Shown: positions 7,941-62,331 of the stretch, one piece after another
How the letters are laid out: each line of letters starts with the position of its first letter
Position numbering within the stretch: position 1 is the first letter of the stretch
Assembly (NCBI GenBank): GCA_009995225.1
Contig: JAACPW010000008.1
Coordinates: 1 to 64,000 of the forward strand
From: Sphingomonadales bacterium
Lineage (GTDB): Bacteria; Pseudomonadota; Alphaproteobacteria; Sphingomonadales; Sphingomonadaceae
Length of the DNA stretch: 64,000 nucleotides
Direction of reading: 5' to 3'
Notes under the pieces: model-generated
What the model was told of the DNA's origin: nothing
Database searches by the model: none
What the model saw: only the letters and a program-made list of their open reading frames with translations
Program-made: the position numbers and the translations under genes

Positions 7941-8122
7941 GCCGGGGTTTTAGCGAGTGAATAGTCGCAGGCTACCTTTTGCGTTCCGGAAATTATCTGG
8001 GACGCCTTTCTTTAGCGATTAGCAGCGGGAAATAGCCGGTCCAAATCGACCAACGACGTTTCGCCCTCTAGCAATATCGTGTCGCCTCGCTAGGCTCCCG
8101 TTCCAATAGAGGGAGACACTTC

Positions 8123-11446: not shown

Positions 11447-11448
11447 GG

Positions 11449-12132: not shown

Positions 12133-12173
12133 GATGAAATGCGTCTCCCCAAGCGCAGGAATGATTGACATTG

Positions 12174-12191
12174 GTGTAATCGCTATTACAC
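12174..12191. promoter_or_regulatory. candidate TetR operator
   Basis: GTGTAAT-CGCT-ATTACAC is a perfect 7-bp inverted repeat with a 4-bp spacer. It sits 42 bp upstream of the TetR ATG and 42 bp upstream of the adaptor ATG, in the only intergenic space between the divergent genes. A TTGACA hexamer (12165-12170) lies next to it on the plus strand. Repressor bound here could block both promoters. Confidence 0.75.
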
Positions 12192-12233
12192 GTTCGCAGC
12201 TGCAATAAAATACCAAATGAAAGATCTCTCCCG

Positions 12234-13415: not shown

Positions 13416-13418
13416 TTT

Positions 13419-34751: not shown

Positions 34752-35366
34752 TCAGACCCTGGCCGCTTCACGTAGCGTGATAAGGTCGCCGATATCAGCA
34801 ACGGCCAGGGCGTGAGACGCGATCATATCGCTAATATCATCGATCCGCGCCATTTCGCCATCGTCGCGCAGGATCGAACAGATCACTGCGGCATCGCCGG
34901 CGCCCGCAAGACGCGCAAGGTCAATCGCCGCCTCGCAAGCCGCTGCGCGGTCGAGAACGCCGCCGCTTTGCGCGATCAGCGGGAAGACATGGCCGGGGGA
35001 GTGGATGTCCGCTGACGTTGCGTTATCGGCGATTGTCACTGCGATGGTATGGGCGCGGTCGGCCGCGGAAATGCCGGTGGAGACGCCATGCCCTGCCTCG
35101 ATCGAGCGGGCGAAGGGCCGCCCGGTTTGGCGTGCTGTGCCAGGGTTTATGAGACTGAGGCCAAGCTGCGCTGCCCGCTCGGGCGTGACCGCAAGACAGA
35201 TCAACCCGCGCCCGTGGGTGGCCATGAAATTGATCGCTTCGGGCGTGACATGGCGGGCGGCGATCATCAGATCGATATCGCCGCCGCGCAGCTGATCGCC
35301 CGAAATCACAACGATCCGCCCCGCCGCAATGGCCGCCAGCGCCGCGTCCAGCCCAGCGCCGCTCAC
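34752..35366 (-). CDS. degenerate RibB-like (DHBP synthase fold) protein
   Basis: 204 residues, collinear with E. coli RibB: THGRGLICLAVTPER, GVSTGISAADRAHTI, and SPGHVFPL near residues 50, 95 and 125 are conserved. Catalytic residues are not: RibB Glu38 is Gly28, Glu40 is Asp30, the metal ligand His153 is Ala143, and Glu174 is Ser164 (aligned from memory). It should not make dihydroxybutanone phosphate. It starts with GTG, overlapping the FMN reductase stop by 4 bp, as last gene of the minus arm of the sulfoquinovose cluster. A flavin-related or regulatory role is possible but unproven. Confidence 0.82.
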   Translation of the reverse strand: MSGAGLDAALAAIAAGRIVVISGDQLRGGDIDLMIAARHVTPEAINFMATHGRGLICLAVTPERAAQLGLSLINPGTARQTGRPFARSIEAGHGVSTGISAADRAHTIAVTIADNATSADIHSPGHVFPLIAQSGGVLDRAAACEAAIDLARLAGAGDAAVICSILRDDGEMARIDDISDMIASHALAVADIGDLITLREAARV

Positions 35367-35935
35367 GCCAGATCCCTTCCCGCCGCGAAGCTTCTGGCGC
35401 CCAGCACCACCTGCTTGCCAACGAGCTCCAACTGACCCCGCGCGCGTTCATCCAGACACTCGCCATCGGGCGAGAACAGCCCGCGATAGGTGCGGATCGT
35501 CGCGCCCATCGGGGTCGGCCAGCCGCGCAGGGCATGGGTGATCGCCCGCATCGTCAGCAGCGTCGACATCGACGCCTGATCGCCGAACGCAGTGGCAATC
35601 AGACCGACCGCGCGGCCATCGAGATAGGGGCGTTCGTCCCGCGACAGGTCTTCGAGGTAATCGAGTGCGTTCTTGACCATCCCGGATATGGTGCCGTGAT
35701 AGCCCGGTGCTGCGACCAGCAAACCATCCGCCGCGCGCACCGCTGCGACCATCTCTGCCCCTTGCGAGGGATCGTGCAGCGGGCCGAGATAATGGGGCAG
35801 GGCGGTGAGATATTCGCCGCCGAACACCGTCACTTCGGCCCCGCCTTCAGCCGCGATGCTGGCGGCCAGACGCAAGGCCTGCTCGGTCGACGAACCGGGA
35901 TTGACCGTGCCGCCAAGGGCTACAATGCGGGTCAT
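35363..35935 (-). CDS. SsuE-like NADPH-dependent FMN reductase
   Basis: 190 residues of the flavodoxin-like NADPH_dep_FMN_red fold. GGTVNPGSSTEQAL forms the FMN-phosphate loop and APGYHGTISGMVKNALDYL is the family signature (residues about 77-95). It should reduce free FMN for a two-component monooxygenase; the obvious partner is the SsuD/SmoC-like enzyme at 46569-47660 in the divergent arm. In the known Agrobacterium sulfo-ASMO pathway the reductase SmoA belongs to another flavin reductase family, so this is a replacement. It overlaps GlpD and the RibB-like gene by 4 bp each. Confidence 0.88.
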   Translation of the reverse strand: MTRIVALGGTVNPGSSTEQALRLAASIAAEGGAEVTVFGGEYLTALPHYLGPLHDPSQGAEMVAAVRAADGLLVAAPGYHGTISGMVKNALDYLEDLSRDERPYLDGRAVGLIATAFGDQASMSTLLTMRAITHALRGWPTPMGATIRTYRGLFSPDGECLDERARGQLELVGKQVVLGARSFAAGRDLA

Positions 35936-37434
35936 GCGGGGGTGATCCTTTCGGTGATATAGCCAGCAAGATGCGCCGTCTGCGCGTCCGTGAAATGCAG
36001 GCCAAGCTTGGTACGCCGCCACAAGACATCTTCGGCCGTGCGCGCCCATTCGTGCTCGATGAGATGGTTGACCTCGGCAGCGGACAGTCCGTGGCCGAAA
36101 TGCTCGCCAAGGTCTGCGAGTGATGCGGCATGGCCAAGAATGGTTGCGGCGCTTGTGCCGTAAAGGCGGATCAGACGTGTCGCTTCGGCTCCGCCCAGGA
36201 AGGGATAGCGCGCTGCCAGATCGCGGGCAAGTTCGGGCGCCTGGAAACGGCCGAAATCACCGCCGGGCAAGGGAGCCTTGCCGGTCCAGTCGCTGCCGCC
36301 CAACACCGGCAGGAAGGGCGCAAGCTGGTCAATCGCCTCGGCGGCGAGCTCGCGGTAGGTGGTAATCTTGCCGCCGAACACGGACAGCAGCGGTGCCGTG
36401 CCGTCGCTGCCGCCGTCGCATTCAAAGCTGTAACCGCGCGTCGCCGCCTCAGGCTTGCCTGAACCGTCGTCAATCAGCGGGCGGACCCCGGAATAGGTCC
36501 AGACCACATCAGCAGGGGTGACGGGTTTGCGGAAATATTCCGAAGCGCCCGCGCACAGATAGGCGATTTCCTCTGCACTGGCGCGCACCTCGTCGAGGCT
36601 GCCGTCGTGATCGACATCGGTGGTGCCGATCAGGGTGAAGTCCTGTTCGTAGGGGATGGCAAAGAAAATGCGCCCGTCCGGCAGTTGAAAGAAATAGGCA
36701 AATTCGTGATCGAACAGCTTGTTCACCACAATATGCGATCCGCGAACCAGCCGCATCTTCTGCGCAGAAGGCTCGCCCGCGCGGCCCAAGAGATCGAGCA
36801 CGCGCGGGCCTGCGGCGTTGACCACGGCGCGGGCATGGAAGGCCTCGTCGCCCGCTGCAATCCGCCAGTGATCGCTGTCTCGGGAGAGCGCCGTGACCTC
36901 GCAGCGCGTGCGCACGACGGCCCCGCGGTTCGCCGCATCGCGAGCGGTTAGCACCACCAAGCGCGCATCGTCCACCCAGCCATCGGAATAGGCGAAGGCG
37001 CGGGTGTAATCGGGCTTGAGCGGCGCACCAGCTGGATGGCGCGCAAGGTCGACGCTTTTGGCCGACGGCAGATATTTGCGCCCGCCGATGTGATCATACA
37101 GGAACAGGCCCAGCCGCAGCAACCAGCGCGGGCGCAGGCCGGGGCGGTGCGGTAGGATAAAGCGCAGCGGCCAGATGATGTGCGGCGCGATCCCCCACAG
37201 CACCTCGCGCTCTGTCAGTGCCTCGCGCACGAGGCTGAACTCGTAGTGCTCGAGATAGCGCAAGCCGCCGTGAATCAGCTTGGTGGAATTGGACGAGGTG
37301 CCTTCCGCCAGATCGCCACGTTCGAGCAGCAGCACCTTAGCGCCGCGTCCTGCCGCGTCGCGCGCGATCCCGGCGCCGTTCACGCCGCCACCGATCACCG
37401 CAAGGTCGAACATGGCTGTTTCAGAGTCGGGCAT
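35932..37434 (-). CDS. glpD: glycerol-3-phosphate dehydrogenase (FAD, GlpD)
   Basis: 500 residues. FDLAVIGGGVNGAGIARDAA is the FAD-binding loop; TKLIHGGLRYLEHYEF and NAAGPRVLDLLG are GlpD motifs, and the C-terminal DAO_C domain ends in EHEWARTAEDVLWRRTKLGL. It oxidises sn-glycerol 3-phosphate to DHAP at the inner membrane, feeding electrons to quinone. Here it sits in the sulfoquinovose cluster, where glycerol is the second product when sulfoquinovosyl-glycerol is hydrolysed. No glycerol kinase is in the window. The ATG at 37434 overlaps the YeiH-type stop by 1 bp; MFDLAVIGGG at 37413 is an alternative. Confidence 0.93.
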   Translation of the reverse strand: MPDSETAMFDLAVIGGGVNGAGIARDAAGRGAKVLLLERGDLAEGTSSNSTKLIHGGLRYLEHYEFSLVREALTEREVLWGIAPHIIWPLRFILPHRPGLRPRWLLRLGLFLYDHIGGRKYLPSAKSVDLARHPAGAPLKPDYTRAFAYSDGWVDDARLVVLTARDAANRGAVVRTRCEVTALSRDSDHWRIAAGDEAFHARAVVNAAGPRVLDLLGRAGEPSAQKMRLVRGSHIVVNKLFDHEFAYFFQLPDGRIFFAIPYEQDFTLIGTTDVDHDGSLDEVRASAEEIAYLCAGASEYFRKPVTPADVVWTYSGVRPLIDDGSGKPEAATRGYSFECDGGSDGTAPLLSVFGGKITTYRELAAEAIDQLAPFLPVLGGSDWTGKAPLPGGDFGRFQAPELARDLAARYPFLGGAEATRLIRLYGTSAATILGHAASLADLGEHFGHGLSAAEVNHLIEHEWARTAEDVLWRRTKLGLHFTDAQTAHLAGYITERITPA

Positions 37435-38525
37435 CAGATCATCCACCATGCAAAGCCCAGCGCGGTTCCCAGCGAGGCAATAGTCGCCGCCAGCACCGGC
37501 ATCACCGAACGCCAGCCGAGCCCGAGCAGCAGGTCGGTGCGCGTCCGCATCGCTGTGGCGGTGACGGCCAGAAGCAGCAAGGCTTTTGACGCTGTCAGCG
37601 CGTGCCCAGCCAGATTGGCGGGCAGGGTGACCACGGAATTGACTATTACCAGCACAAGGAACGCCAGAATGAAGCCCGGCAGCAGGGGGACCCGCGCTTT
37701 TCCGGTCTCTTCAGGCAGAGGCTGCGCTCGGGCGATCCACAGCGCGGCGAGCGTCACCGATGGCGCGAGCAGGGCAACGCGGGTCAACTTCACCACGGTC
37801 GCTTGCGCGCCGGCTGCGTCGGACACGGCAAAACCTGCGCCGATCGCCTGCGCCACGTCATGAATGGACGCGCCGACGAGGAAGCCTGCCTGCGCATCGG
37901 TAAAGCCGAGCATCCGGGTCAGCGGCGGATAGGTGACAAGCGCAATGGCGCTGGCTGCGGCCAGGATGACCAGCGTGAGGGTGAAGAGCGATTGGTCGAT
38001 CCGTTCTCGCCCGATCACACCGTACAGAGCCAACGCCGCCGATGCGCCGCAGATCGCGGTTGACCCGCCGCCAAGGATACCGACGGCGGCGCTTTGCCCC
38101 GTGAGACGCGCAGCGGCGAGCGCGGCGATCAACGCGGACATCATCACAAGTGCCAGGCCCATGAACGGTACCGCCCCCATTGCGAGGACCTGCATGACCG
38201 TGACCTGCACCCCCAGCAGCACGATCCCGGCGCGTAGGCCGTGGCGCGACACCCAATCGAGGCCTTCATGCGTGCGCGGATCGCTCGCGGCGAAGTTCAG
38301 CGCAAGGCCGATCAGCAGCCCTGCCAGAATGATCGGCACACTGTAGTTCTGGCTGAGCCAAGCCGCAGCAGCCCCGGCGATGGCGCAGATGGCAACGCCG
38401 GGTATGAAGCGCGACAGCGGCTTGCGGGTGCGGGGCTCGGCCGCAGCGGCTGTGTCGGCCAGCATGATCTCGCCGAACAGATCGCCGGCGAACGCCTCGA
38501 AATCGGGGGTGGACCCTCGCTTCAT
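37434..38525 (-). CDS. YeiH-family putative sulfate/sulfite exporter
   Basis: 363 residues, about ten membrane helices after a polar 40-residue N-terminus. GGGSTAICGASAALAL (near residue 150) and VGASIHDVAQAIGAG (near 218) are the signature of the Cons_hypoth698/YeiH family, annotated as putative sulfate exporters. In this cluster the sulfur product expected from the monooxygenase is sulfite, a toxic anion that must leave, so an exporter fits well. Function within the family is poorly tested. It lies between the MFS gene and glpD on the same strand. Confidence 0.85.
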   Translation of the reverse strand: MKRGSTPDFEAFAGDLFGEIMLADTAAAAEPRTRKPLSRFIPGVAICAIAGAAAAWLSQNYSVPIILAGLLIGLALNFAASDPRTHEGLDWVSRHGLRAGIVLLGVQVTVMQVLAMGAVPFMGLALVMMSALIAALAAARLTGQSAAVGILGGGSTAICGASAALALYGVIGRERIDQSLFTLTLVILAAASAIALVTYPPLTRMLGFTDAQAGFLVGASIHDVAQAIGAGFAVSDAAGAQATVVKLTRVALLAPSVTLAALWIARAQPLPEETGKARVPLLPGFILAFLVLVIVNSVVTLPANLAGHALTASKALLLLAVTATAMRTRTDLLLGLGWRSVMPVLAATIASLGTALGFAWWMI

Positions 38526-38636
38526 GCCGGTGCAGCCTTGCCCATCGCCTGCGCGGCGAACCCTTGTCGCGGCGCTTCTGTCTTACGGTGTCATAACCCT
38601 AACCCGCGCCGCTTCCCATTGCAACCGCGCGTGCGT

Positions 38637-39902
38637 TCAATCCGCTGCGAGAGCGGCGTCTTCCGGGCGGCGGATATCGGGCAGCAGCCATTGGAACCAT
38701 GCCAGGGCGACAAGATAGGATGAAGCGGCAAAGATGAACAGCGGAACGAAGCCCAGCCCCGCATCCAGCACGCGGCCGGTCACAAGGCTGATCGCGACGC
38801 CGCCCATGTTGCCCATGAACGCGCCGAACGCCGTCACCCGCCCGACCTTCGCATTGGGGACCACATCGGTGATGGTCGAGAACAGCGAGAGCGAGAAGCC
38901 CTGGTGTCCGGCCATGACCAGCCCGATCATGCAGGCAACCGGCCAAAAGGCATTCAATTCCAGCACCAGCGGCAAGGGCGCAACCAGCAGGGCGGAGACA
39001 AGCATCACGCTCTTGCGCACACGGTTGGGGCTGACGCCGCGCTCCAGCAGCTTGGTCGAGACCCAGCCTGCCAGCAGCGCACCAAGCCCCGATCCGGCGA
39101 ACGCGATGGCCAGCGGCAGCGCCAATTCGAGCGTGGTGAGACCAAATTCCTTGCGGTAATAATCGGCCAGCCAGAAATTGATGAACCACCATGTCATGTC
39201 CGACAGCGCCTTCGCGCCGACGATCGCCCAGGTCTGGCGGTTGGCAAGGATCGGGCCATAAGCCGCGCTGTTCGCGCTATCGGCCGGTGAAGCGGTAACC
39301 GTGCGCTCCCGCAATTGCGCCACACCGCGCGCCAGCCAGATCCACGCCAGCAGCGAAATGAATCCGCCAATACCGCCTGCCACCAGCGCCCCGCGCCAGC
39401 CCACCGTCAGCGCCAGCGCCGGGATTACGAAAGGCATCGCAATTGTCCCCGCCCCTGCCAACATGGTGGCAAAGCCGAAGGCGAAGCTGCGCTGGTCGGG
39501 CGGGAACAATGTGGCGACGGTCTTGATTGTTAGCGGGGTCTGCACCGCCTCGGTCACGCCAAGACCCACGCGGGCGGCGACGACCTGCGCGGTGGTGATC
39601 GCCCAGCCGTGCGCCATGGCCGCAAGGCTCCACGCCGCCGCGCCGACCTGCATCGAACGGTTCACGCCCAGCCGATCAACCAGCCAGCCGGTGAACAGAA
39701 ACGCAAAGGCGGCCGAAAACTGCGTCACTGCGGCCAAATCACCGAAGTTGCTGTCGCTCCATCCGAAATCGGCCATCATGTCGGGCTTGAGGATTGCGAT
39801 GATCGGACGGTCCATCGCGTTGAACACACCTGCGACGCACAGCACCGTGAACAGCGACCAACGCAACCGGGCGGACAGGATCGGGGAAGATTGGGCCATC
39901 AT
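38637..39902 (-). CDS. MFS transporter (ACS/hexuronate-like), probable sulfoquinovoside importer
   Basis: 421 residues with 12 predicted helices. The loop-2 signature GWLVDRLGVNRSM and TEAVQTPLTIKTVATLFPPDQRS in part recall the anion:cation symporters that carry hexuronates and other sugar acids. A GAGGAG ribosome site precedes ATGATG at 39902. Being between the TonB receptor and the YeiH-type exporter, in a cluster whose hydrolase is cytosolic, it is the best candidate to carry sulfoquinovose or its glyceride across the inner membrane. Agrobacterium uses an ABC importer and E. coli a GPH carrier, so this would be a different solution. Confidence 0.85.
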   Translation of the reverse strand: MMAQSSPILSARLRWSLFTVLCVAGVFNAMDRPIIAILKPDMMADFGWSDSNFGDLAAVTQFSAAFAFLFTGWLVDRLGVNRSMQVGAAAWSLAAMAHGWAITTAQVVAARVGLGVTEAVQTPLTIKTVATLFPPDQRSFAFGFATMLAGAGTIAMPFVIPALALTVGWRGALVAGGIGGFISLLAWIWLARGVAQLRERTVTASPADSANSAAYGPILANRQTWAIVGAKALSDMTWWFINFWLADYYRKEFGLTTLELALPLAIAFAGSGLGALLAGWVSTKLLERGVSPNRVRKSVMLVSALLVAPLPLVLELNAFWPVACMIGLVMAGHQGFSLSLFSTITDVVPNAKVGRVTAFGAFMGNMGGVAISLVTGRVLDAGLGFVPLFIFAASSYLVALAWFQWLLPDIRRPEDAALAAD

Positions 39903-39953
39903 CGGCTCCTCATCAGCAAAATGCAGGCCAGCACAAGGCCAGGCTATCATGCG

Positions 39954-39983
39954 AAGGGCCGCCGGATCGCTCCGACGGCCCTT
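39954..39983. terminator. hairpin between TonB receptor and MFS genes
   Basis: AAGGGCCGCCGGA (39954-39966) pairs with TCCGACGGCCCTT (39971-39983) with one mismatch and a TCGC loop. A T-rich tract follows only on the plus strand. On the minus strand it lies between two co-directional genes and may lower readthrough from the receptor gene into the transporter gene. Confidence 0.65.
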
Positions 39984-40012
39984 TCTTGTTTGTTATGACC
40001 TGAAGGGGCGCA

Positions 40013-42343
40013 TCACATCCGCGCGCGCAGGCTGACGCCGAAGTAACGATCCGCATCGCGCGGGATTTGCAGGCGGCGCTGGTTCTCGATGTTGAGCAGC
40101 ACGTAGCTTTCATCGGTGATGTTGCGCGCATGGAAAGTGATGCGATACTTGTCCTCAATATCGGAGAAGCCGATCGAGGCATTCCAGATCCCGTAAGGAT
40201 CAATCCGGGTCGCGGGATTTTCGCCGAGGTCCGAAAACTGCGTGCTGGTGTGGCGGAAATCGGTGTTGAGATACATCACCGCTGCATCGCCCAGATCCCT
40301 CGTGTAGTCTGCACCCACGGTATAGACGAACTTGGGGGCGAGCGGCAGCTGCGTCCCGTTCTGGGCGTTGGGCGCGTTGGTCAGCGGGTTGGGGTTGAAT
40401 TCCTTGACCCGTGCATCAGCGTAGGCGGCGCTGGCGCGCAAGTTCAGACCATCGACTGCCGAAACCACGAGGTCGGCTTCGAAGCCTTCGGACTTGACCG
40501 TCCCGGCGTTGGTCAGGTTCGATACCGTCGCGCCGTTGATCAGGACGAAGTTGTTCGCCTGGAACCCGTCATATTCGACCGTGAAGGCCGCCAGATTCAA
40601 TTGCACCCGGTTGTCGAGAAACTGCGACTTCACCCCGATTTCGAAACTGTCGGACAGCTCTTCGTTGATCGGCACAGCGTTGTTCGGCGCGGTGTGGTTG
40701 AAGAACACGTTGAACGCCGGGCCTTTGTAACCGCGCGTGTACGACCCGTAGAGCATGATGTCTTCGGTCGGCTCGAACTGGATCACCGCGCGGCCCGAGA
40801 GGTTGCCGTTGGTGGTCGATCCCGCCGAGGTGTTGGTCCCGTTGCCGCCGCCGGCGATGGTGCCGCCCGCCGGATTGCCCGACACGCCCGGCCCGGTTGC
40901 CGGCAGGCCGGTGACGGCATTGACGCCCGGTGCGCGGGTGTGGGTGTATTCGAGATCGTCCCAAGTGTAGCGCAGGCCGCCGGTCAACGAGAGCTGCTCA
41001 GTGAAGCGATAGGTCGCCTGGCTGAACACCGCAAAGTTTTGCGAACGCACCTCGCTGCGCGAGGTCGCGGTCGGGAACAGGGTGTTCACGCGGTCTGCAA
41101 GGTTGCAGGGCCGTGCGCCGGTGCGCGGGTCGACCGGCAGGGTCGAGGTGGCGCAGGTGACGTTGTTGCGGGTAAAGTCCTGCGTGTTGTCCGACTGCCA
41201 GGCAAACACGCCGGCCTGATAGAAGAACGGCTGGGTCTGATCAGATGCGATGCGGATTTCGGCTGAAAGCTGCTCGGTCCGCACCACGCCGTCATCGTGC
41301 AGCTCGCCCACGCCCACCAGTGCGCGCGGCAGGAAATCGCCTTCACGCTGCTCGCGGTTGAACCAGTTGCGATAGCCCAGAACGGCGCTCAGGGTGTGGG
41401 TATCACTGATCTCGAAATCGCCCGCGGCGGTCAGGCTCCACTGTTCGTCATTGGTCTGCGTTACGAGGTTGTGATTGACGAAACGCTGGTCCTCGCCAAG
41501 CGCCACGCCGTTCGGCAGGTTCAGTTCGGCATCCTGCTGCGCGCCGCGGCTGGCGCCGGTCACATCGGCGCAGCAATCGTCATTCGCCTTGTAGTAATCG
41601 GCGATCAGGCGAACGGCATTGGCGCCGTCATCATAATCCATGATCCCGCGCACGCCGTAACGTTCGTAACCATTGACCTTGTTGTTGGTGCCGCCATTGA
41701 TGTTGGTGATGTTGCCATCATAGCTGCCATAAAAGCCGGTAAGACGGGCGCTGAGGTTTTCGCCAAGCGGGCCAGACAGCGCGGCGCGCAGCCGATATTC
41801 GTCGCCCTCGAAATAATCGGCGTTCACTTCGGCCTCGAGGGTGTCGGTGCCACCCTTCGATACGATGTTGACGAGGCCAGCCGAGGCATTGCGACCGAAC
41901 AGCGTGCCTTGAGGCCCGCGCAGCACTTCAAGGCGCTGGATATCGACCAGGTCCATGAAGGCCTGTCCCGAACGCGACAGGACAACGCCGTCGACAACGG
42001 TGGACACGGATGGCTCGGCCGCGACCGAGAAGCTGATGGTGCCGACGCCGCGCATCACGATCGCGCTGTTGGCGCTGGTGGTGCCCTTGCGGAAGGTCAC
42101 CGACGGGATCACGGTCGAGATGTTTTCAAGACTGAAGACGACGGCTTGTTGCAGGCGGTCGCCCGAAACCGCGGTAATCGCGATCGGCACGTCCTGCACA
42201 TTTTCCTCGACTTTTTGTGAGGTTACGATGATCTCTTCGACCTGCGCCATAGCCGGCGCGGTGTGGATCAACGCCAGCGAACTGGCAGAAAGGGCAAGTG
42301 CCCTCAGCGCGAATCGCTGCGCAATACGGGTGGTGGCCGGCAT
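40013..42343 (-). CDS. TonB-dependent receptor (probable sulfoquinovoside uptake)
   Basis: 776 residues. A signal peptide ends PAMAQ; VEEIIVTSQK next to it is the TonB-box region. The plug domain contains VFSLENISTVIPSVTFRKG and LEVLRGPQGTLFGRNASAG, the usual plug signature, and the rest is a 22-strand barrel ending YFGVSLRARM. It would move a substrate too large or scarce for porins across the outer membrane. It is the first gene of the minus arm and diverges from the sulfoquinovosidase gene across 162 bp, so co-regulation is expected. GGGGAGAG supports the ATG at 42343. Confidence 0.9.
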   Translation of the reverse strand: MPATTRIAQRFALRALALSASSLALIHTAPAMAQVEEIIVTSQKVEENVQDVPIAITAVSGDRLQQAVVFSLENISTVIPSVTFRKGTTSANSAIVMRGVGTISFSVAAEPSVSTVVDGVVLSRSGQAFMDLVDIQRLEVLRGPQGTLFGRNASAGLVNIVSKGGTDTLEAEVNADYFEGDEYRLRAALSGPLGENLSARLTGFYGSYDGNITNINGGTNNKVNGYERYGVRGIMDYDDGANAVRLIADYYKANDDCCADVTGASRGAQQDAELNLPNGVALGEDQRFVNHNLVTQTNDEQWSLTAAGDFEISDTHTLSAVLGYRNWFNREQREGDFLPRALVGVGELHDDGVVRTEQLSAEIRIASDQTQPFFYQAGVFAWQSDNTQDFTRNNVTCATSTLPVDPRTGARPCNLADRVNTLFPTATSRSEVRSQNFAVFSQATYRFTEQLSLTGGLRYTWDDLEYTHTRAPGVNAVTGLPATGPGVSGNPAGGTIAGGGNGTNTSAGSTTNGNLSGRAVIQFEPTEDIMLYGSYTRGYKGPAFNVFFNHTAPNNAVPINEELSDSFEIGVKSQFLDNRVQLNLAAFTVEYDGFQANNFVLINGATVSNLTNAGTVKSEGFEADLVVSAVDGLNLRASAAYADARVKEFNPNPLTNAPNAQNGTQLPLAPKFVYTVGADYTRDLGDAAVMYLNTDFRHTSTQFSDLGENPATRIDPYGIWNASIGFSDIEDKYRITFHARNITDESYVLLNIENQRRLQIPRDADRYFGVSLRARM

Positions 42344-42472
42344 ATCATTCTCTCCCCTGCATCGTGATCGGTTCATTCGGGCAATGGCCAAAGCCATCGC
42401 TCGTGGGTCGATCTTTCGCTGTTCGGGTTGCGCTGTCCGCCGCGATCTGTCAAGCGGTGTCATAGTGGGTTA

Positions 42473-42484
42473 CGGGATATCCCG
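42473..42484. promoter_or_regulatory. candidate LacI operator in the divergent promoter
   Basis: CGGGATATCCCG is a perfect 12-bp palindrome 22 bp before the sulfoquinovosidase ATG, within the only regulatory space between the two arms of the cluster. Nearby lie TGTCA repeated at 42448-42452 and 42458-42462. The cluster's LacI-type repressor is the likely ligand, but the match is short and the assignment is tentative. Confidence 0.4.
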
Positions 42485-42505
42485 CTGCTTGATCGAGGGG
42501 CTGGA

Positions 42506-44494
42506 ATGGTGCGGCTGACGCCATGCGAGGGCGGATTTGACTTGGCATTGGCCGGGTGCGCTTTGCTGCGTCATCGCCCGGAATATCCTGCAATTTCGGT
42601 GGCTTCGGGTGACCCGCGGGTCGTCATGGTGCGTGGCAACTTCCGCCTGTCCGACGATGCTGTGACCGCGCAGCCACTATGCGTGGCAGAAGTGGACGAT
42701 GCCGGGCAATGGACGCTATCGACCGCTGATGGCAGCGCGAAGGTGTCCGTCGCGCTTGCGCGGGATGCATCGCGCCTCACTGTGGCGGCACTTTGCAGGC
42801 ATGACCGGCTGACGATCGATGTCACGCTAGGCTCTGACGACATCTTGTGGGGCGGGGGCGAACAGATGAGCTATCTCGCCCTGAATGGCCGCACCTTCCC
42901 GATCTGGACCAGCGAGCCGGGCGTGGGCCGTGAACCTGGTACGCCGCCGACCGATCAGGCAAGCGCCGATGGATCCTTTGCGGGCGGGGATTACTGGACC
43001 ACCAATTATCCCGAACCCACGGTGCTGTGTTCGGCAGGATGGGCGCTGAGCCTTGCCAATGCCGACTATGTCGAACTGGACGCGACCCAGCCGGGTCGGC
43101 TGCGCATCAATGTCTGGTCGGGCACAGTCCGGATCGACCTGTTTGAAGGTGAGCCCGCCGATCTCACCCGGCAATTGGCAGGCCGTTTCGGCGCACGCCC
43201 CGCACTCCCCGATTGGGCGCTGGGCGGCGCCATCGTCGGGCTCAAACAGGGCGCGGCCAGCTTCGACCGGCTTGAAGCCCTGATCGATGCCGGCGCGATG
43301 GTCAGCGGCCTTTGGTGTGAAGACTGGGTCGGTATCCGCGAAACCAGCTTCGGGCGCCGCCTGTTCTGGGATTGGCAGTGGAACGCCGACCGTTATCCGG
43401 ATTTGCCCGCGCGCATGGCAGCGTTAAAGGCGCGAGGCATCCGCTTCCTTGGCTATGTGAACCCCTATCTCGCGGTCGATGGCCCACTCTATCCCGAGGC
43501 CGCTGCCAAGGGCTATTTCGCCAAATGCCTGGATAGCGATGAACCCTACGCGGTCGATTTTGGCGAGTTTTACGCAGGCGTGGTCGATTTCACCAATCCT
43601 GCCGCGTGCGATTGGTTTGCCGAAGACGTGATCGGCCAGCGAATGCTCGATTTCGGGCTGGATGGCTGGATGGCGGACTTTGGCGAATATCTCCCCACTG
43701 ATTTGCGCCTGCACGATGGCGACCCGATGGAGGAACACAACCGCTGGCCGGTGCGCTGGGCCGAAGTTAACGCCCGCGCCGTTGCGTCACGCGGGCGCAC
43801 GGGCGACGTGCTGTGGTTCATGCGCGCTGGCCATACGGGCGTGCAGGCGCATTGCCCCTTGCTGTGGGCAGGCGACCAGTCGGTCGATTTCAGCCGCCAT
43901 GACGGTATCGGCACGGTCATCACCGCTGCGCTTTCGTCCGGGCTTGTCGGCAATGCCTTCAGCCACTCGGACGTCGGTGGCTATACCAGCCTGTTTGGCA
44001 ATGTCCGCACACCGGAACTGATGCTGCGCTGGTACGAACTGGGCGCCTTCAGCCCCGTGATGCGCACGCATGAAGGCAACCGGCCGGACGACAATCTCCA
44101 GATCGACAGCAATGCCGAACTGATCGCCGGATTTGTGCGCTGGAGCAATGTTCATACCGCACTGACGCCCTATCTCCGTCATCTCGTTGCCGAGGCACAG
44201 GCCACCGGCCTTCCGGCGCAGCGGGCGGTGTTTCTGCACTATCCCGAAGACCGCGAAACCTTCACCATACAGGACCAGTTCCTCTATGGCAGGGACATGA
44301 TGGTGGCACCCGTGATCGAAGCAGGGGCGAATATGCGAAAGGTCTATCTTCCGGACGGCGCATGGCGGCACGTGTGGAGCGGGCAGGACTTCGCCCCTGG
44401 GTGGCACGATGTCGCAGCGCCGCTGGGCGAGCCGCCTGTGTTCTATCGACCGGACAGCGCCTTTGCGCCGCTGTTCGCGAGAATCCCCAAATGA
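42506..44494 (+). CDS. GH31 sulfoquinovosidase (YihQ/SmoI type)
   Basis: 662 residues, no signal peptide, so cytosolic. It is collinear with E. coli YihQ: GGGEQMSYLALNGRTFPIWT, GIRETSFGRRLFWDWQWN, DGWMADFGEYLPTDL and MRTHEGNRPDDN are near-identical blocks. Nucleophile Asp391 (MADFGE) and acid/base Asp457 (WAGDQ) match YihQ Asp405 and Asp472. The sulfonate pocket is Lys247, Glu272, Arg285, Trp288, Tyr493, matching YihQ positions 262, 288, 301, 304, 508: the K-E-R-W-Y form described for some sulfoquinovosidases (YihQ has Q-Q-R-W-Y). It should release sulfoquinovose and glycerol from sulfoquinovosyl-glycerol. It overlaps the LacI gene by 4 bp. Confidence 0.92.
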   Translation: MVRLTPCEGGFDLALAGCALLRHRPEYPAISVASGDPRVVMVRGNFRLSDDAVTAQPLCVAEVDDAGQWTLSTADGSAKVSVALARDASRLTVAALCRHDRLTIDVTLGSDDILWGGGEQMSYLALNGRTFPIWTSEPGVGREPGTPPTDQASADGSFAGGDYWTTNYPEPTVLCSAGWALSLANADYVELDATQPGRLRINVWSGTVRIDLFEGEPADLTRQLAGRFGARPALPDWALGGAIVGLKQGAASFDRLEALIDAGAMVSGLWCEDWVGIRETSFGRRLFWDWQWNADRYPDLPARMAALKARGIRFLGYVNPYLAVDGPLYPEAAAKGYFAKCLDSDEPYAVDFGEFYAGVVDFTNPAACDWFAEDVIGQRMLDFGLDGWMADFGEYLPTDLRLHDGDPMEEHNRWPVRWAEVNARAVASRGRTGDVLWFMRAGHTGVQAHCPLLWAGDQSVDFSRHDGIGTVITAALSSGLVGNAFSHSDVGGYTSLFGNVRTPELMLRWYELGAFSPVMRTHEGNRPDDNLQIDSNAELIAGFVRWSNVHTALTPYLRHLVAEAQATGLPAQRAVFLHYPEDRETFTIQDQFLYGRDMMVAPVIEAGANMRKVYLPDGAWRHVWSGQDFAPGWHDVAAPLGEPPVFYRPDSAFAPLFARIPK

Positions 44495-45498
44495 GCCGCG
44501 CCAATATCAAGGATGTGGCCGCCCGCGCGGGCGTGGCGGTGAAGACGGTCAGTCGCGTCCTGAACGGCCATCCCTATGTCAGCGAGGCGCTGCGCGAGAA
44601 GGTCGAGACAGCGATGGCCGATCTCGATTACCGCCCTTCCGTTGCGGCCCGCATACTTTCGGGGGCAAAGTCCCATCAGATCGCGCTGATTTACGACAAT
44701 CACAGCCCCTATTACATGTTCCAGATCCAGAAGGGCTGCTGGGACGTGTGCCACGAAAATGGCGTTCGCCTGCTGGCACAGCCCGTGGATGTCGCCGACC
44801 CCCGCGTCGGCGATCAGGTGCGCGGGCTGGTGACCGAGACACACGTCGACGGCATCATCCTGTCATCGCCCGTCACCGATTGCGTGTCCGTGCTGCGCGC
44901 GCTGGAGGGGATGGACGTGCCCTTCGTGCGGATTTCGCCGGGCACCAATCATGCGCTGACATCATCGGTGTTCATGGACGATGCCCAGGCCGCCGATGAC
45001 ATGACCACGCACCTCATCAATGCCGGCCATCGCCGGATCGGCTTCATCAAGGGCCACACCAATCACATGGCGTCCGACGACCGGTTGTTTGGTTACCGCC
45101 GCGCGCTGGACCGGGTCGGCATCCCGTTTGAACCGCAGATGGTGGTCGACGGCAAATTCGATTTCGATTCCGGCGTGGCGGGCGCGCGCGTCTTGCTCGA
45201 CCTGCCTGACCGGCCGACCGCGATCTTCGCTTCGAATGACGATATGGCCGCAGGTGTGCTCGCCTTGGCGCATGACCGGGGGATTGCAATTCCGGCTGAT
45301 CTGTCCGTCGCCGGCTTCGATGATACCACACTGGCCCGGACCGTCTGGCCGCCGCTTACCACCATCCGCCAGCCGATGGCCGATCTGGCGCGCACCGCTA
45401 CCCAGATCCTGATTGCAGGTGGAGACATCACCCATAAACGCTTGCCCCATGACCTTGTCGAGCGCGCTTCGGTCGCTCCGCCAAAGAAGACCCAATGA
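44491..45498 (+). CDS. LacI-family repressor of the sulfoquinovose cluster
   Basis: 335 residues. The N-terminal LacI helix-turn-helix reads IKDVAARAGVAVKTVSRVLN, with the hinge helix near RPSVAARILSG, then a periplasmic-binding-type effector domain with GHRRIGFIKGHTNHMASDDR and AGFDDTTLARTVWPPLTTIR. It is translated with the sulfoquinovosidase (ATGA overlap) and is followed 10 bp later by the aldo/keto reductase, so it is embedded in the operon it probably controls. The inducer is likely sulfoquinovose or its glyceride, by position only. Confidence 0.9.
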   Translation: MSRANIKDVAARAGVAVKTVSRVLNGHPYVSEALREKVETAMADLDYRPSVAARILSGAKSHQIALIYDNHSPYYMFQIQKGCWDVCHENGVRLLAQPVDVADPRVGDQVRGLVTETHVDGIILSSPVTDCVSVLRALEGMDVPFVRISPGTNHALTSSVFMDDAQAADDMTTHLINAGHRRIGFIKGHTNHMASDDRLFGYRRALDRVGIPFEPQMVVDGKFDFDSGVAGARVLLDLPDRPTAIFASNDDMAAGVLALAHDRGIAIPADLSVAGFDDTTLARTVWPPLTTIRQPMADLARTATQILIAGGDITHKRLPHDLVERASVAPPKKTQ

Positions 45499-45508
45499 GG
45501 AACCCCGC

Positions 45509-46435
45509 ATGAGTGAATTGCCCCTGCCGCCCGAGTCCCGTGTTCTTGGCCGCCACCTTGGCGCAGGCGGGATCGAAGTCTCCCCGCTCGCATGGGGGAT
45601 GTGGCGTCTGGCCGACAATGGCCGCAGCGCCGCCGATGCGGCTAAGCTGGTTCACGCCGCGCTCGATGCCGGGATCACCTTCCTCGACACCGCCGACATC
45701 TATGGTTTCGATGGCAACGGCGGCTTTGGCGATGCCGAAGTGCTGCTGGGCGAAGTGCTGGCGGCGGAGCCCGGTTTGCGGGACCGTATGGTGCTGGCCA
45801 CCAAGGGCGGCATCCTGCCGCCGCTGCCATACGATCAGAGCGCGGATTATCTGCGCAAGGCTATCGACGATTCGCTGGCACGGCTGAAGGTTGACAGCGT
45901 TGACCTTTGGCAGATTCACCGTCCCGATATTCTCGCGCACCCGCAAGAGACGGCGCGCGTGCTGGATGATGTCGTGGCAAGCGGCAAGGTGCGCAGCCTT
46001 GGCGTGTCAAACTTCACCATTCATCAGACCGCCGCGCTCAATCACCTCCTCGGCACCAAGCTGGTAACGACCCAGCCCGAAATCAGTGCGCTGCGTATCG
46101 ACTGCTTCGAGAATGGCGAGCTGGACCAGGCGATGATGCTGGGCCTGACTCCGATGGCATGGTCGCCGCTGGGCGGCGGCAGGCTTGCGGTGCCGGAAAC
46201 GCCGCGCGACAAAGCGGTGGCTGCCGCGCTAGATAGCGTGGCAGAGGCACAAGGCGTGTCGCGCACGGTCTGCGCCTATAGCTGGCTGATGGCGCACCCC
46301 GCCGGGATCATCCCCATCATCGGCTCACAGAATGCCGAGCGGATCGCGGAAAGTGCCGAGGCGCTCAAGGTCCGCTGGACCCGCACGGATTGGTACGCGG
46401 TTCTGGTCGCCGCGCGGGGCGTTCCGCTGCCCTGA
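45509..46435 (+). CDS. aldo/keto reductase, probable 6-oxo-glucose reductase (SmoB-like)
   Basis: 308 residues, an AKR (beta/alpha)8 barrel with the catalytic tetrad Asp60, Tyr65 (FLDTADIYG), Lys99 (LATKGG) and His137 (WQIHRPD). SNFTIHQTAALNHLL and WSPLGGGRL are further AKR motifs; IPIIGSQNAERIAES near the C-terminus is the NADP(H)-binding region. In the sulfo-ASMO pathway an enzyme of this family, SmoB, reduces 6-oxo-glucose to glucose. Its place between the LacI gene and the monooxygenase makes that the best assignment. GAGG 9 bp upstream supports the ATG at 45509. Confidence 0.87.
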   Translation: MSELPLPPESRVLGRHLGAGGIEVSPLAWGMWRLADNGRSAADAAKLVHAALDAGITFLDTADIYGFDGNGGFGDAEVLLGEVLAAEPGLRDRMVLATKGGILPPLPYDQSADYLRKAIDDSLARLKVDSVDLWQIHRPDILAHPQETARVLDDVVASGKVRSLGVSNFTIHQTAALNHLLGTKLVTTQPEISALRIDCFENGELDQAMMLGLTPMAWSPLGGGRLAVPETPRDKAVAAALDSVAEAQGVSRTVCAYSWLMAHPAGIIPIIGSQNAERIAESAEALKVRWTRTDWYAVLVAARGVPLP

Positions 46436-46450
46436 CGCTCACACCTCCCC

Positions 46451-46546
46451 CCGTTCGGGCTGAGCTTGTCGAAGCCCTGCCTTTCTTGAGGTTCGGTTGG
46501 TGAGGCGAAGCAAATTGCAGCCCTTCGACAAGCTCAGGGCGAACGG
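46451..46546. repeat. REP-like inverted repeat (CTTCGACAAGCTCAG core)
   Basis: A 24-bp arm at 46451-46474 is the inverse of 46523-46546 with two mismatches. Each arm contains the CTTCGACAAGCTCAG core that is dispersed in sphingomonad genomes. The pair can form a long hairpin between the aldo/keto reductase and the monooxygenase genes and could affect mRNA stability or readthrough. Open frames through it encode the repeat-derived peptide FDKLRANG, so they are not part of the next gene. Confidence 0.82.
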
Positions 46547-46568
46547 AAATTGGGATGGGAATGACGCA

Positions 46569-47660
46569 ATGACTGAACAGCAACAATGCGAAATCGCGTG
46601 GTTTTCCGCGCTGTGCGACGATGATTACGAGTTTCTCGGCGTTCCAGATCCCTACCTGCAATCGAGCTGGGAGCATTGCCGCAATATCGTGCTGCGCGCC
46701 GAAGAGGGCGGGTTTGACAACATCCTGCTGCCTTCGGGCTATCAGCTTGGCGTTGACACCACGATCTTTGCCGCCGCCGTCGCGACGCAGGTCAAGCGCA
46801 TCAAGCTGCTTTGGGCGACCCGCATGGGCGAAGACTGGCCGCCGCAACTGGCGCGCCGGATCGCGACACTTGATCGCATCCTCGGGCCCAACGCGGCGGG
46901 TACCGGCGGGCGGCTGAACGTCAACATCATCTCGTCTGACATGCCGGGCGAAAAGATCGAAAGCGCACCGCGCTATCGCCGCGGCACCGAGATCATGAAG
47001 ATCGTCCGCACGCTGCTGAACGGCGAACACCTCGATTTTCAGGGTGAATTCTACCAACTGAAGCTTGATCCGCCGCGGATCACAACGCTGAATGGCAAGT
47101 GCCCGCCGTTCTACTTTGGCGGCCTCAGCCACGAAGCCCGCGAGTGCGCAGCAGAAGCGGCGGACGTCTACCTGATGTGGCCCGACACGATGGACAAGGT
47201 CCGCGAGAATATCGCTGACCTGAAGGCACGCGCTGCCAATTACGGTCGAACGTTGAAGTTCGGCTATCGCGCTCACGTGATTGTCCGCGAGACAGAGGAC
47301 GAAGCGCGCCTTTATGCGGATCGCCTGCTTTCCAAACTCGACGATGAAGCGGGCCGCGCGATCCGCGAACAGAGCCTCGATGCCAAGAACTACGGCGTGC
47401 AGCGGCAGCAGGAATTGCGCGGGGCGGCGGATGGCGATGGCTTTGTCGAAGAGAACCTGTGGACCGGCCTCGGCCGCGCGCGTTCGGGCTGCGGGGCGGC
47501 GATTGTTGGCACACCTGATCAGGTGCTGGCGAAACTGCGCGCCTATCAGGCCGAAGGGATCGAGGCCTTCATTCTGTCAGGCTACCCCCATGCGCAGGAA
47601 GCCGATCTGTTTGCGCGCCATGTGCTGCCGCATATCGCGCACGGCCCGCTGGAACTGTAA
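46569..47660 (+). CDS. LLM-class flavin-dependent sulfoquinovose monooxygenase (SsuD/SmoC-like)
   Basis: 363 residues, a bacterial luciferase-like barrel collinear with alkanesulfonate monooxygenase SsuD. CPPFYFGGLSHEARECAAE, GYRAHVIVRETEDEA and FILSGYPHAQEAD are family blocks. Active-site residues Arg234, His236, Arg305 and Tyr339 match SsuD Arg226, His228, Arg297 and Tyr331 at a constant offset; SsuD Cys54 is not kept. With FMNH2 from the cluster's reductase it should oxidise sulfoquinovose at C6, releasing sulfite and 6-oxo-glucose, like SmoC. The ATG at 46569 is chosen because upstream codons derive from the REP-like repeat. A separate promoter is possible. Confidence 0.9.
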   Translation: MTEQQQCEIAWFSALCDDDYEFLGVPDPYLQSSWEHCRNIVLRAEEGGFDNILLPSGYQLGVDTTIFAAAVATQVKRIKLLWATRMGEDWPPQLARRIATLDRILGPNAAGTGGRLNVNIISSDMPGEKIESAPRYRRGTEIMKIVRTLLNGEHLDFQGEFYQLKLDPPRITTLNGKCPPFYFGGLSHEARECAAEAADVYLMWPDTMDKVRENIADLKARAANYGRTLKFGYRAHVIVRETEDEARLYADRLLSKLDDEAGRAIREQSLDAKNYGVQRQQELRGAADGDGFVEENLWTGLGRARSGCGAAIVGTPDQVLAKLRAYQAEGIEAFILSGYPHAQEADLFARHVLPHIAHGPLEL

Positions 47661-60391: not shown

Positions 60392-61471
60392 ATGACGAGC
60401 GCCTGGAAAGCCGAACACGTCAAGGGTATCCTGCCTGGGGATGCGGGCTTGATACCGGCAGTGCGCGCGCCTGACCGCTCGGCCCTCGATCCGGCGCGGC
60501 TCTATTGGGATATGTGGCCACTGCAAGATGCGCAGGGGCATCCTGCGCAACTGGCGGGGCGTTCCATGTGGATGGCGCTGACTGCGCCCGATCGCGGCGA
60601 TCCGGCGCTGCGGCATTTCGAGGCGAAGATCCACTGGATCGAGCGGCGCGGCGATGCGTGGCACGATCTGGGGCCGGCGCTTCCCGATCTGGCCGTGCCC
60701 TACGAACGCGAATGGGCCGGATCGGCCTTGCTCGACACAGGCGCAGTGACGCTGTTCTTCACCGCCGCGGGAACCGCAAGGGCCGCAGGTGGCTACCAGC
60801 AGGAACTGTGGTCGACGACTGCGCCGCTTGGCGCTGACGGATGGCCGCGGCAGTGGTCGTTCCCGGTCCCATCCGTTCAAGGCTATGGCCCCTATTACAT
60901 GGCCGCCGATGCCCACGACGGCGCGCCGGGCACCATCAAGGCGTTCCGTGACCCGGCCTTCTTCCGCGACCCTGCCGACGGCGCGCGCTACATCGCCTTC
61001 ACCGCATCGCTGGCCGGATCGGACAGTGCCTTCAACGGCGCCTTCGGAATAGCCCGTTTGACGGCTCAGGGGTGGGTCTTGTGCCCCCCTTGTCTCCATG
61101 CAGACGGCGTCAACAACGAGCTTGAGCGGGCCCATCTGGTCTTTCATGGCGATCGTTACTATGCATTCTGGTCAACGCAGACGGTGACCTTCGCGCCCGG
61201 TCTGAGCCATGCACCGGGCGGGCTTTACGGGATGGTGGCGGACAGCATGGCAGGCCCGTGGCGGCCACTGAACGGGACCGGACTGGTGCTCGCCAATCCG
61301 GCAGACCGTCCGCAACAGACCTATAGCTGGTTCGTCGATGCCTCCCTTACGGTGTGCAGCTTTGTCGATGTCATGCCAGACGGCAGTTTCGGCGGCGTGC
61401 CTGCGCCGCTTTTGCAACTGCGACTGGAAGGTGACCGGGCGACGGTTCGCACGGCGGAGCAGGTCGGCTGA
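60392..61471 (+). CDS. GH68 family sucrose hydrolase/fructosyltransferase without signal peptide
   Basis: 359 residues. The GH68 catalytic set is visible: nucleophile Asp40 in YWDMWPL, EWAGSA (107-112), transition-state stabiliser Asp187 in FRDPAF, and acid/base Glu245 in ELERAHL. Classical GH68 levansucrases are secreted and about 100 residues longer; this one has no signal peptide and sits with a sucrose importer and a fructokinase. It most likely splits sucrose in the cytosol into glucose and fructose. Levan synthesis is less likely. Zymomonas SacC is a related sphingomonad precedent for GH68 sucrase. It overlaps the kinase by TGATG. Confidence 0.88.
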   Translation: MTSAWKAEHVKGILPGDAGLIPAVRAPDRSALDPARLYWDMWPLQDAQGHPAQLAGRSMWMALTAPDRGDPALRHFEAKIHWIERRGDAWHDLGPALPDLAVPYEREWAGSALLDTGAVTLFFTAAGTARAAGGYQQELWSTTAPLGADGWPRQWSFPVPSVQGYGPYYMAADAHDGAPGTIKAFRDPAFFRDPADGARYIAFTASLAGSDSAFNGAFGIARLTAQGWVLCPPCLHADGVNNELERAHLVFHGDRYYAFWSTQTVTFAPGLSHAPGGLYGMVADSMAGPWRPLNGTGLVLANPADRPQQTYSWFVDASLTVCSFVDVMPDGSFGGVPAPLLQLRLEGDRATVRTAEQVG

Positions 61472-62331
61472 TGCTCGGCGGGATCGAGGCGGGCGGCACC
61501 AAGTTCGTGCTGGCCGTCGGCCCTTCGCCCGACCGGATCGCCGCGCGCCACACCATCCCCACCCGTGACCCTGCGACCACGCTGGCCGAGGCGGCGGACT
61601 GGTTCGCGGGCCGAGGCGCGGTCAAGGCGCTTGGCATTGGCAGCTTCGGCCCGGTGGAGCTCGACCGGCAGTCGCAACGCTGGGGTTTTATCACGAACAC
61701 CCCGAAACCGGGCTGGGCGGACTGCAATATCGTGGGCTATTTCGACCAGGCGCTGGGCGTTCCGGTCGGCTTCGATACCGATGTGAACGCGGCGGCGCTG
61801 GCGGAATACGCTGGCGCGGGGGGGACGGGCGGAGGTCTTGCCTATCTCACCATCGGCACCGGGATCGGCGGCGGTCTGGTGCTGGACGGCAAGCCGGTCC
61901 ACGGCATCGCGCACCCCGAAATGGGTCACATCTACCCGCGCCGCCACCCGCAAGACACGGACTTTGCAGGCGTCTGCCCGCATCATGGCGACTGTCTGGA
62001 AGGGCTTGCCAGTGGCCCTGCGATCATGGCGCGCTGGGGCGCTTCGCTGTCCGAACTTCCGGCAGACCATCCCGGTCACGTGATGATCGCCGATTACATC
62101 GCGCAGGCCTGCCATATGCTGTTTGCCAGTGTGGCCGTGGGGAAGATCGTCATCGGCGGCGGGGTAGCGAACACGCCGGGGCTGATCGAGACGGTCGCCC
62201 GGCGCTGCCGCAGCCTTGATGCAGGCTATCTGCCGGGCGGCGCCCGCCATGCCGTGATCCGTCCGCGCCTTGGCGGCGATGCCGGGATCAGGGGCGCGAT
62301 GATGCTGGCTCAGGTCGCAGCAAGGGCTTGA
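61471..62331 (+). CDS. ROK-family fructokinase
   Basis: 286 residues. GIEAGGTKF is the phosphate-binding loop of ROK sugar kinases, DTDVNAAAL contains catalytic Asp104, and the zinc site is formed by His153 (EMGHIYP), Cys169, His172 and Cys175 (VCPHHGDCLEG). GTGIGGGLVLDG completes the set. The zinc pattern and the locus favour fructose as substrate, giving fructose 6-phosphate. Its ATG overlaps the GH68 stop. GGGCTTG-AA-CAAGCCC (62324-62339) forms a hairpin over its stop codon and may end the transcript. Confidence 0.88.
   Translation: MLGGIEAGGTKFVLAVGPSPDRIAARHTIPTRDPATTLAEAADWFAGRGAVKALGIGSFGPVELDRQSQRWGFITNTPKPGWADCNIVGYFDQALGVPVGFDTDVNAAALAEYAGAGGTGGGLAYLTIGTGIGGGLVLDGKPVHGIAHPEMGHIYPRRHPQDTDFAGVCPHHGDCLEGLASGPAIMARWGASLSELPADHPGHVMIADYIAQACHMLFASVAVGKIVIGGGVANTPGLIETVARRCRSLDAGYLPGGARHAVIRPRLGGDAGIRGAMMLAQVAARA

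Follow-up and report, generated by a model that had tools for sequence, protein, structure and literature searches.

Positions 34752–47660 of the window (the whole stretch of 64,000 nucleotides that was analysed, part of a 3.0-Mb Sphingomonadales genome) hold a divergent cluster of ten genes in two arms. The (+) arm encodes a sulfoquinovosidase (SQase), a LacI regulator, a SmoB-like reductase and a SmoC-like sulfoquinovose (SQ) monooxygenase, and the (-) arm a TonB receptor, a major facilitator superfamily (MFS) transporter, a YeiH-type exporter, GlpD, a flavin mononucleotide (FMN) reductase and a paralogue of RibB, the 3,4-dihydroxy-2-butanone 4-phosphate (DHBP) synthase. SQ is the sugar, bearing sulfur, of plant sulfolipids. 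We consider it probable that the enzymes follow the known sulfo-SMO/ASMO route, as predicted from their sequences, turning SQ-glycerol into sulfite, glucose and glycerol, and that a RibB paralogue devoid of Mg ligands has been recruited to the cluster. The gene content, homology, residue losses, linkage and conserved sites behind this reading are observed directly. All nine genes named in a preliminary description of this DNA are open reading frames whose Pfam matches exceed the curated cut-offs, and their labels largely stand; the tenth, RibB-like gene, inside the same interval, had been overlooked. It appears to be a new element of the cluster.

Aligned with E. coli RibB, the RibB-like protein reads LRGGDID for the motif DRENEGD and AACEA for GHTEA. 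We compared 51 RibB-like orthologue sequences (48 distinct; that of locus L140 begins after the first motif) with 12 canonical RibBs. The fold, the phosphate arginines Arg37 (50/50) and Arg150 (51/51), as well as Asp42 (50/50) and His136 (51/51), are shared with canonical DHBP synthase, but the Mg ligands Glu38 (lost in 49/50) and His153 (51/51) are gone, as is Glu174 (51/51), and Glu40 is replaced by Asp in 50/50. Glu38, His153, Glu174, Arg37, Asp42, His136 and Arg150 are all kept in 12/12 canonical RibBs. The RibB-like proteins have also gained Arg83 and Pro84 (51/51, vs. Thr and Ala in 12/12 canonical enzymes) and Arg167 (51/51 vs. 1/12). The Novosphingobium humi RibB-like protein, outside the 51-sequence set, has Lys at the last position and shows the same residue losses. 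We take Glu174 to be a functional position of DHBP synthase.

The window protein matches the DHBP synthase family profile, and its predicted structure (predicted local distance difference test score, 91.4) would have the same fold, with DHBP synthases throughout Foldseek ranks 1–47; both Mg ligands and Glu174 of such an enzyme are missing from it. In a DHBP synthase crystal structure, R34 and R147 grip the phosphono group and H133 and D39 the ligand, while E35 and H150 coordinate Mg (PMC12268802, available text). By motif equivalence these are Arg37, Arg150, His136, Asp42, Glu38 and His153. The residue counts and these ligand roles together indicate a protein that has retained the anion cradle but lost the metal site. 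Since neither Mg ligand is left, DHBP synthesis by the RibB-like protein would not be expected; since the two arginines for the substrate phosphate are kept, we propose that it binds an anionic ligand. In simulations addressing Glu39, Glu41 and His154 of another DHBP synthase, Mg sometimes entered the mutants, at non-wild-type positions (PMC5228156, in the part available). In a FastTree phylogeny a long branch separates the 48 distinct RibB-like sequences from the 12 canonical ones (supports of 1.0 and 0.858 when midpoint-rooted). Databases, where they name the gene, label it a riboflavin enzyme, a name with which its active site disagrees.

The RibB-like gene is linked to the pathway and to its neighbour. 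Among SmoC loci with an FMN reductase or a RibB-like gene, 33/34 carry both (L048 and L120 being one contig); in the exception, L030, the reductase match begins 64 bases from the locus edge. A search of 246 Sphingomonadales genomes with the RibB-like protein (E <= 1e-68, at most 12 candidates scored per genome) gave 29 matches in 28/246 genomes, 18 degenerate and 11 canonical. The FMN reductase adjoins 18/18 degenerate and 0/11 canonical matches (Fisher p 3e-8, relatedness ignored), and 18/18 degenerate carriers have SmoC on the same contig, 0.9–11.2 kb away (in L162 beyond the fetched stretch, where it was placed by the SmoC genome search). SmoC was detected at E <= 1e-120 in 43 genomes of the same 246-genome draw, weaker relatives such as a 51% one of genome G057 being counted as absent. 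Degenerate RibB occurs in 18 of these 43 genomes vs. 0/203 others (Fisher p 7e-16, relatedness ignored), a link whose scope is the 246 genomes of this order. All six of the most diverged RibB-like sequences (L041 included) lie within SQ clusters. In a plasmid search with the RibB-like protein, for which 40 of 254 records were listed, Novosphingobium humi came first, with a degenerate form in an SQ cluster; two among the listed matches, H33 and H37, were examined and keep the catalytic residues. The missing metal-binding residues and the occurrence of the gene only beside the pathway in the related genomes sampled point to a likely new role for the RibB-like protein.

The enzymes of the (+) arm resemble those of known SQ catabolism. 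The best matches of the glycoside hydrolase family 31 (GH31) enzyme in a PDB sequence search were 5ohy and 5ohs (776 and 774 bits), followed by E. coli YihQ (585 bits), and GH31 enzymes outside the SQase group scored <=152 bits. The window enzyme has R, W and Y at the positions of YihQ Arg301 and Trp304 (both numbered along the chain in the alignment) and of the GGYT tyrosine. The earlier assignment of a YihQ-like GH31 with a sulfonate pocket is thus borne out, with SQase structures outscoring YihQ itself. Arg301 and Trp304 are, we assume, the sulfonate-contacting residues. SmoC scored 365 bits with 7olf, 360 with 7oh2, 200 with 7jv3 and 186 with SsuD, and the segment LWTGxGRARSGCGAA is common to window SmoC, 7olf and 7oh2, where SsuD has LWAGVGLVRGGAGTA. 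A monooxygenase described before as SsuD-like is therefore present, but it is nearer to the SQ monooxygenases than to SsuD. The aldo/keto reductase (AKR) matched 7bbz and 7bby best (197 bits; next, 147 bits). The entries 5ohy/5ohs, 7olf/7oh2 and 7bbz/7bby are presumably the Smo enzymes of Agrobacterium/Rhizobium. SmoC and SmoB lie within ten open reading frames of each other, as asked by the rule in the available text of PMC13372026, a placement judged from the best PDB relatives and not from that paper's own queries. The SQase and a dedicated flavin reductase (PF03358) complete the sulfo-SMO/ASMO set, and the homology of these four pathway proteins supports the predicted route from SQ-glycerol to glucose, sulfite and glycerol put forward before.

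Conserved sites accompany both arms. The element TGTCAAGCGGTGTCA, which has a single exact copy in the genome, recurs at five more places at two mismatches (two for the reversed control pattern). Its form TGTCAAGC is found in 93/94 intergenic stretches between the arms, as delimited from start codons, with some genomes counted twice; L052 is without it. The second site, TGTCTTACGGTGTCA, is alone at chance level (3 window matches at <=3 mismatches vs. 1.92 expected), and TGTCNNNCGGTGTCA occurs in 33/33 same-type stretches 5′ of the YeiH run, again with some genomes counted twice. In the intergenic region, a sigma-70 scan gave no match. The two conserved operator-like sites, which LacI would bind, suggest one LacI regulon over both arms. 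Because TGTCNNNCGGTGTCA recurs 5′ of the run that carries the RibB-like gene, this gene may belong to the SQ regulon.

Several observations weigh against the proposed pathway and recruitment. Degenerate RibB was not matched in 25/43 SmoC genomes at the threshold used, and 22/80 named SmoC loci (the best 80 of 178 SmoC relatives) that have room enough, SmoC being preceded by >=9 kb and followed by >=3.5 kb, show neither FMN reductase nor RibB-like gene. This count follows removal from 26 of L030, which has the reductase, and of L064, L070 and L072, in which GlpD continues past the locus boundary. In general, therefore, the pathway does not require the RibB-like protein. L146, the carrier with the greatest divergence, has a score in the range of canonical RibBs, so that more diverged forms, inside or outside SQ loci, may have escaped the search. 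L142 retains Glu at the Glu38 column, and the window protein passes the NCBIfam ribB model TIGR00506 by 1.6 bits (179 bits, cut-off 177.45). Neither operator element is a perfect palindrome. In the genome, where only PF00174 was sought, no sulfite dehydrogenase of the SorA/SoxC type was conspicuous; the sole PF00174 protein is nearest MsrP, under the MsrP cut-off.

Could the RibB-like gene raise the FMN supply of the flavin-dependent monooxygenase by making DHBP? It adjoins the FMN reductase, its product narrowly passes the ribB model, and intact RibBs lie near flavin enzymes elsewhere: in L157 (Sphingopyxis FD7) a RibB with all catalytic residues adjoins an NAD(P)H-dependent oxidoreductase, and in L158 (Azospirillum) such a RibB lies near a luciferase-like monooxygenase and next to a flavin reductase. 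However, both Mg ligands and Glu174 are lost in all or nearly all orthologues, and a canonical RibAB with catalytic residues is already encoded elsewhere in the genome. We hold this role to be very improbable and reject it on the residue losses. The same losses, and the many SmoC clusters without the gene, would fit a decaying passenger without function, but the ratio of nonsynonymous to synonymous substitution rates (dN/dS) is 0.112–0.178 in 10/10 comparisons, a range like that of GlpD and SQase. The RibB-like-specific Arg83, Pro84 and Arg167 are invariant in 51/51 sequences, the gene is paired with the FMN reductase, and in three genome matches flagged with a stop this stop falls outside the frame. 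Decay is in our estimate just as improbable as DHBP supply.

The cluster might also serve another sulfonated, or a plain, alpha-glucoside rather than SQ-glycerol. Specificity is not readable with certainty from sequence, and YihQ Gln262 and Gln288 are replaced by Lys and Glu in the window GH31. The same Lys and Glu are carried by 5ohy, however, and SmoC- and SmoB-type partners share the cluster, which makes a different substrate hardly probable.

Under the preferred reading, an SQ-glycerol cluster with a recruited RibB paralogue, we infer the following activities and regulation. The TonB receptor and the MFS transporter would import SQ-glycerol, from which GH31 would free SQ and glycerol. The FMN reductase would give FMNH2 to SmoC, which would cleave the C–S bond to yield sulfite and 6-oxo-glucose, and AKR would reduce the latter to glucose. 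Sulfite or sulfate likely leaves through the YeiH-type protein, GlpK (encoded elsewhere in the genome) and GlpD would take glycerol into metabolism, and LacI likely represses both arms via TGTCNNNCGGTGTCA sites. The RibB-like protein would bind an anionic ligand (SQ, with the sulfonate replacing phosphate, or FMN), acting beside the FMN reductase, its constant neighbour. The cluster points to a likely coupling of SQ and glycerol use in such bacteria.

More tentatively, a riboflavin enzyme may have turned into a sulfosugar protein whose former phosphate cradle holds the SQ sulfonate, and which could serve SmoC as SQ mutarotase or as a partner in handing over substrate or FMN. As stated in the available part of PMC5902678, SQases release alpha-SQ, sulfoglycolytic clusters encode a mutarotase, and spontaneous SQ mutarotation is slow, with a predicted half-life of 299 min without phosphate. 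No aldose-1-epimerase was found by Pfam among the ten cluster genes, the rest of the genome not having been searched. Since mutarotation is slow and the ten genes include no such epimerase, a RibB-derived SQ-binding protein or mutarotase is a reasonable idea; FMN binding beside the reductase is another. The RibB-like gene is a candidate new pathway component and marks one branch of the SQ clusters.

Sulfo-ASMO has been shown in Agrobacterium and Novosphingobium aromaticivorans (PMC9594981, PMC12890257, both as available), and the accessible text of PMC13372026 gives Novosphingobium as an SQ assimilator and terms genomes with SmoB and SmoC sulfo-SMO positive. Because it is already in print for N. 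aromaticivorans in these sources, the SQ route is not new in sphingomonads. The cluster, called divergent before, is so against Agrobacterium but not against sphingomonads. The N. aromaticivorans SquD/SquF cluster (Liu et al., 2021, as far as available) shares with the window an SQ monooxygenase and a 6-dehydroglucose reductase with a YihQ-type SQase, likewise in a sphingomonad. It is reported to be without an SsuE homologue in the available text of PMC9594981 and PMC12890257, whereas the window has a dedicated FMN reductase and a RibB-like gene. SmoC of six Novosphingobium plasmids is 85–88% identical to window SmoC; on one Novosphingobium plasmid, pLA3, neither FMN reductase nor RibB-like gene is present, and GlpK adjoins GlpD. 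The Agrobacterium Smo cluster was reportedly described by Sharma et al. in 2022, and we know of no RibB-like gene in it. It shares SQase, SmoB, SmoC and flavin reductase with the window (in part from PMC9594981), but its importer is of the ATP-binding cassette (ABC) type in the available text of PMC9594981, in place of which the window has a TonB receptor and an MFS transporter. A Pfam scan found no ABC component of such a Smo importer among the ten cluster genes, so that the difference in transport claimed earlier holds. Literature searches on SQ with riboflavin, monooxygenase, TonB and Erythrobacter, with subscription papers mostly outside their coverage, returned no paper that, going by its entry, describes the RibB-like gene.

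Among the named loci, those nearest in SmoC are mostly of Erythrobacter/Porphyrobacter (L003–L030; 89–96% identity), a kinship judged by SmoC alone. The gene order recurs: SQase, LacI, AKR and SmoC follow one another on one strand in 75/80 fetched loci. Among the remaining five, contig ends truncate L054 and L074, L026 shows a rearrangement, and L053 and L060 have no LacI match and their SQase elsewhere. At E <= 1e-60, SmoC was detected in 18/61 genomes (own included) and in 17/37 of the same genus. GlpD lies in the left arm in 26 of the 80 loci and right of SmoC in 31 (L064, L070 and L072 added by hand; L030, a partial match). Among same-genus stretches with longer flanks, 12/14 carry both the FMN reductase and the RibB-like gene, arranged in ten as in the window and in two (L119, L120) placed right of SmoC; the contigs of the remaining two break off before that point.

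Other SmoC surroundings were also seen. Contig G023:C225 (L095, L101) has two inverted SmoC copies ∼3 kb apart, possibly an assembly artefact. In L169 (Novosphingobium sp. EMRT-2 plasmid), SmoC and AKR adjoin a phytanoyl-CoA dioxygenase-family gene in another layout, and a fatty-acid-CoA ligase gene and two of the GH31 type lie close by. Bacteroidota SmoC relatives (44–45% identity) occur on an Emticicia oligotrophica plasmid (L168), near a sodium/solute symporter and a GH95 gene, and on Spirosoma plasmids. In L107 (Rhizobium sp. WSM4643 plasmid), a 66%-identity SmoC lies near GH31 SQase-like, dehydrogenase, lactonase, dehydratase and aldolase genes, a set that resembles sulfo-ED (Entner–Doudoroff) with SmoC added.

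The FMN reductase belongs to Pfam FMN_red and scored 28.6 bits with the SsuE model TIGR03567 (cut-off 164.05); its earlier label, SsuE-like, is loose, and SsuE identity is rejected. For the YeiH-type exporter, the Pfam assignment is sound, but the protein reached 85 of the 232.6 bits set for the YeiH sulfate exporter model TIGR00698. The MFS transporter scored under the cut-offs of all 19 NCBIfam models listed. GlpD of the cluster is the sole GlpD match in its own genome, the glycerol kinase is the one FGGY protein there (613 bits, cut-off 590), and a glucokinase is encoded 8 kb past the window end.

Table 1. Genes and operator-like sites of the cluster, in window coordinates.
Feature	Position	Strand	Evidence
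RibB-like protein (DHBP synthase paralogue) without Mg ligands	34752..35366	-	PF00926 206 bits; E. coli RibB alignment; residue table
NAD(P)H:FMN reductase, FMN_red family, not SsuE equivalog	35363..35935	-	PF03358 82.5 bits
GlpD, glycerol-3-phosphate dehydrogenase	35932..37449	-	NF009906 738 bits, cut-off 352
YeiH-type membrane protein, predicted sulfite/sulfate exporter	37434..38525	-	PF03601 161.4 bits, cut-off 24.5
Second operator-like site TGTCTTACGGTGTCA, 5′ of the YeiH–GlpD–FMN reductase–RibB-like run	38579..38593	+	Pattern match
MFS transporter, predicted inner-membrane uptake of SQ or SQ-glycerol	38637..39950	-	PF07690 146 bits
TonB-dependent outer-membrane receptor	40013..42343	-	PF00593 and PF07715
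Conserved operator-like element TGTCAAGCGGTGTCA between the divergent arms	42448..42462	+	Sole exact copy in genome
GH31 sulfoquinovosidase (YihQ/SmoI type)	42506..44494	+	5ohy 776 bits; NF007746 810 bits, cut-off 553
LacI-family regulator	44491..45498	+	PF00356 and PF13377
Aldo/keto reductase, SmoB/SquF type, predicted 6-oxo-glucose reductase	45509..46435	+	7bbz 197 bits
SQ monooxygenase, SmoC/SquD type	46569..47660	+	7olf 365 bits; 7oh2 360 bits

Likely starts were chosen from overlaps and relatives, with the codons checked, for TonB (42343), GH31 (42506), AKR (45509), SmoC (46569) and FMN reductase (35935); the likely LacI start (44491) forms an ATGA overlap with the GH31 stop. The GlpD, FMN reductase and RibB-like frames overlap successively by 4 bases, the FMN reductase ATG with the GlpD stop and the RibB-like GTG with the FMN reductase stop. 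The window has no tRNA and no Rfam match at gathering scores. Between the reductase and SmoC genes a TTCGACAAGCTCAGGGCGAAC-type repeat occurs as two inverted copies, 46453–46473 (-) and 46524–46544 (+), one of which is read through by a SmoC frame listed with its start at TTG 46497. We take this pair to resemble a REP-type (repetitive extragenic palindromic) element. Elsewhere in the window, two RND (resistance-nodulation-division; AcrB-type) transporter genes and an outer-membrane efflux gene stand around an amidohydrolase with a WD40-like propeller (3721–18097), and a GH68 levansucrase/invertase gene adjoins a ROK-family gene (60392–62331), likely a sucrose-use locus.

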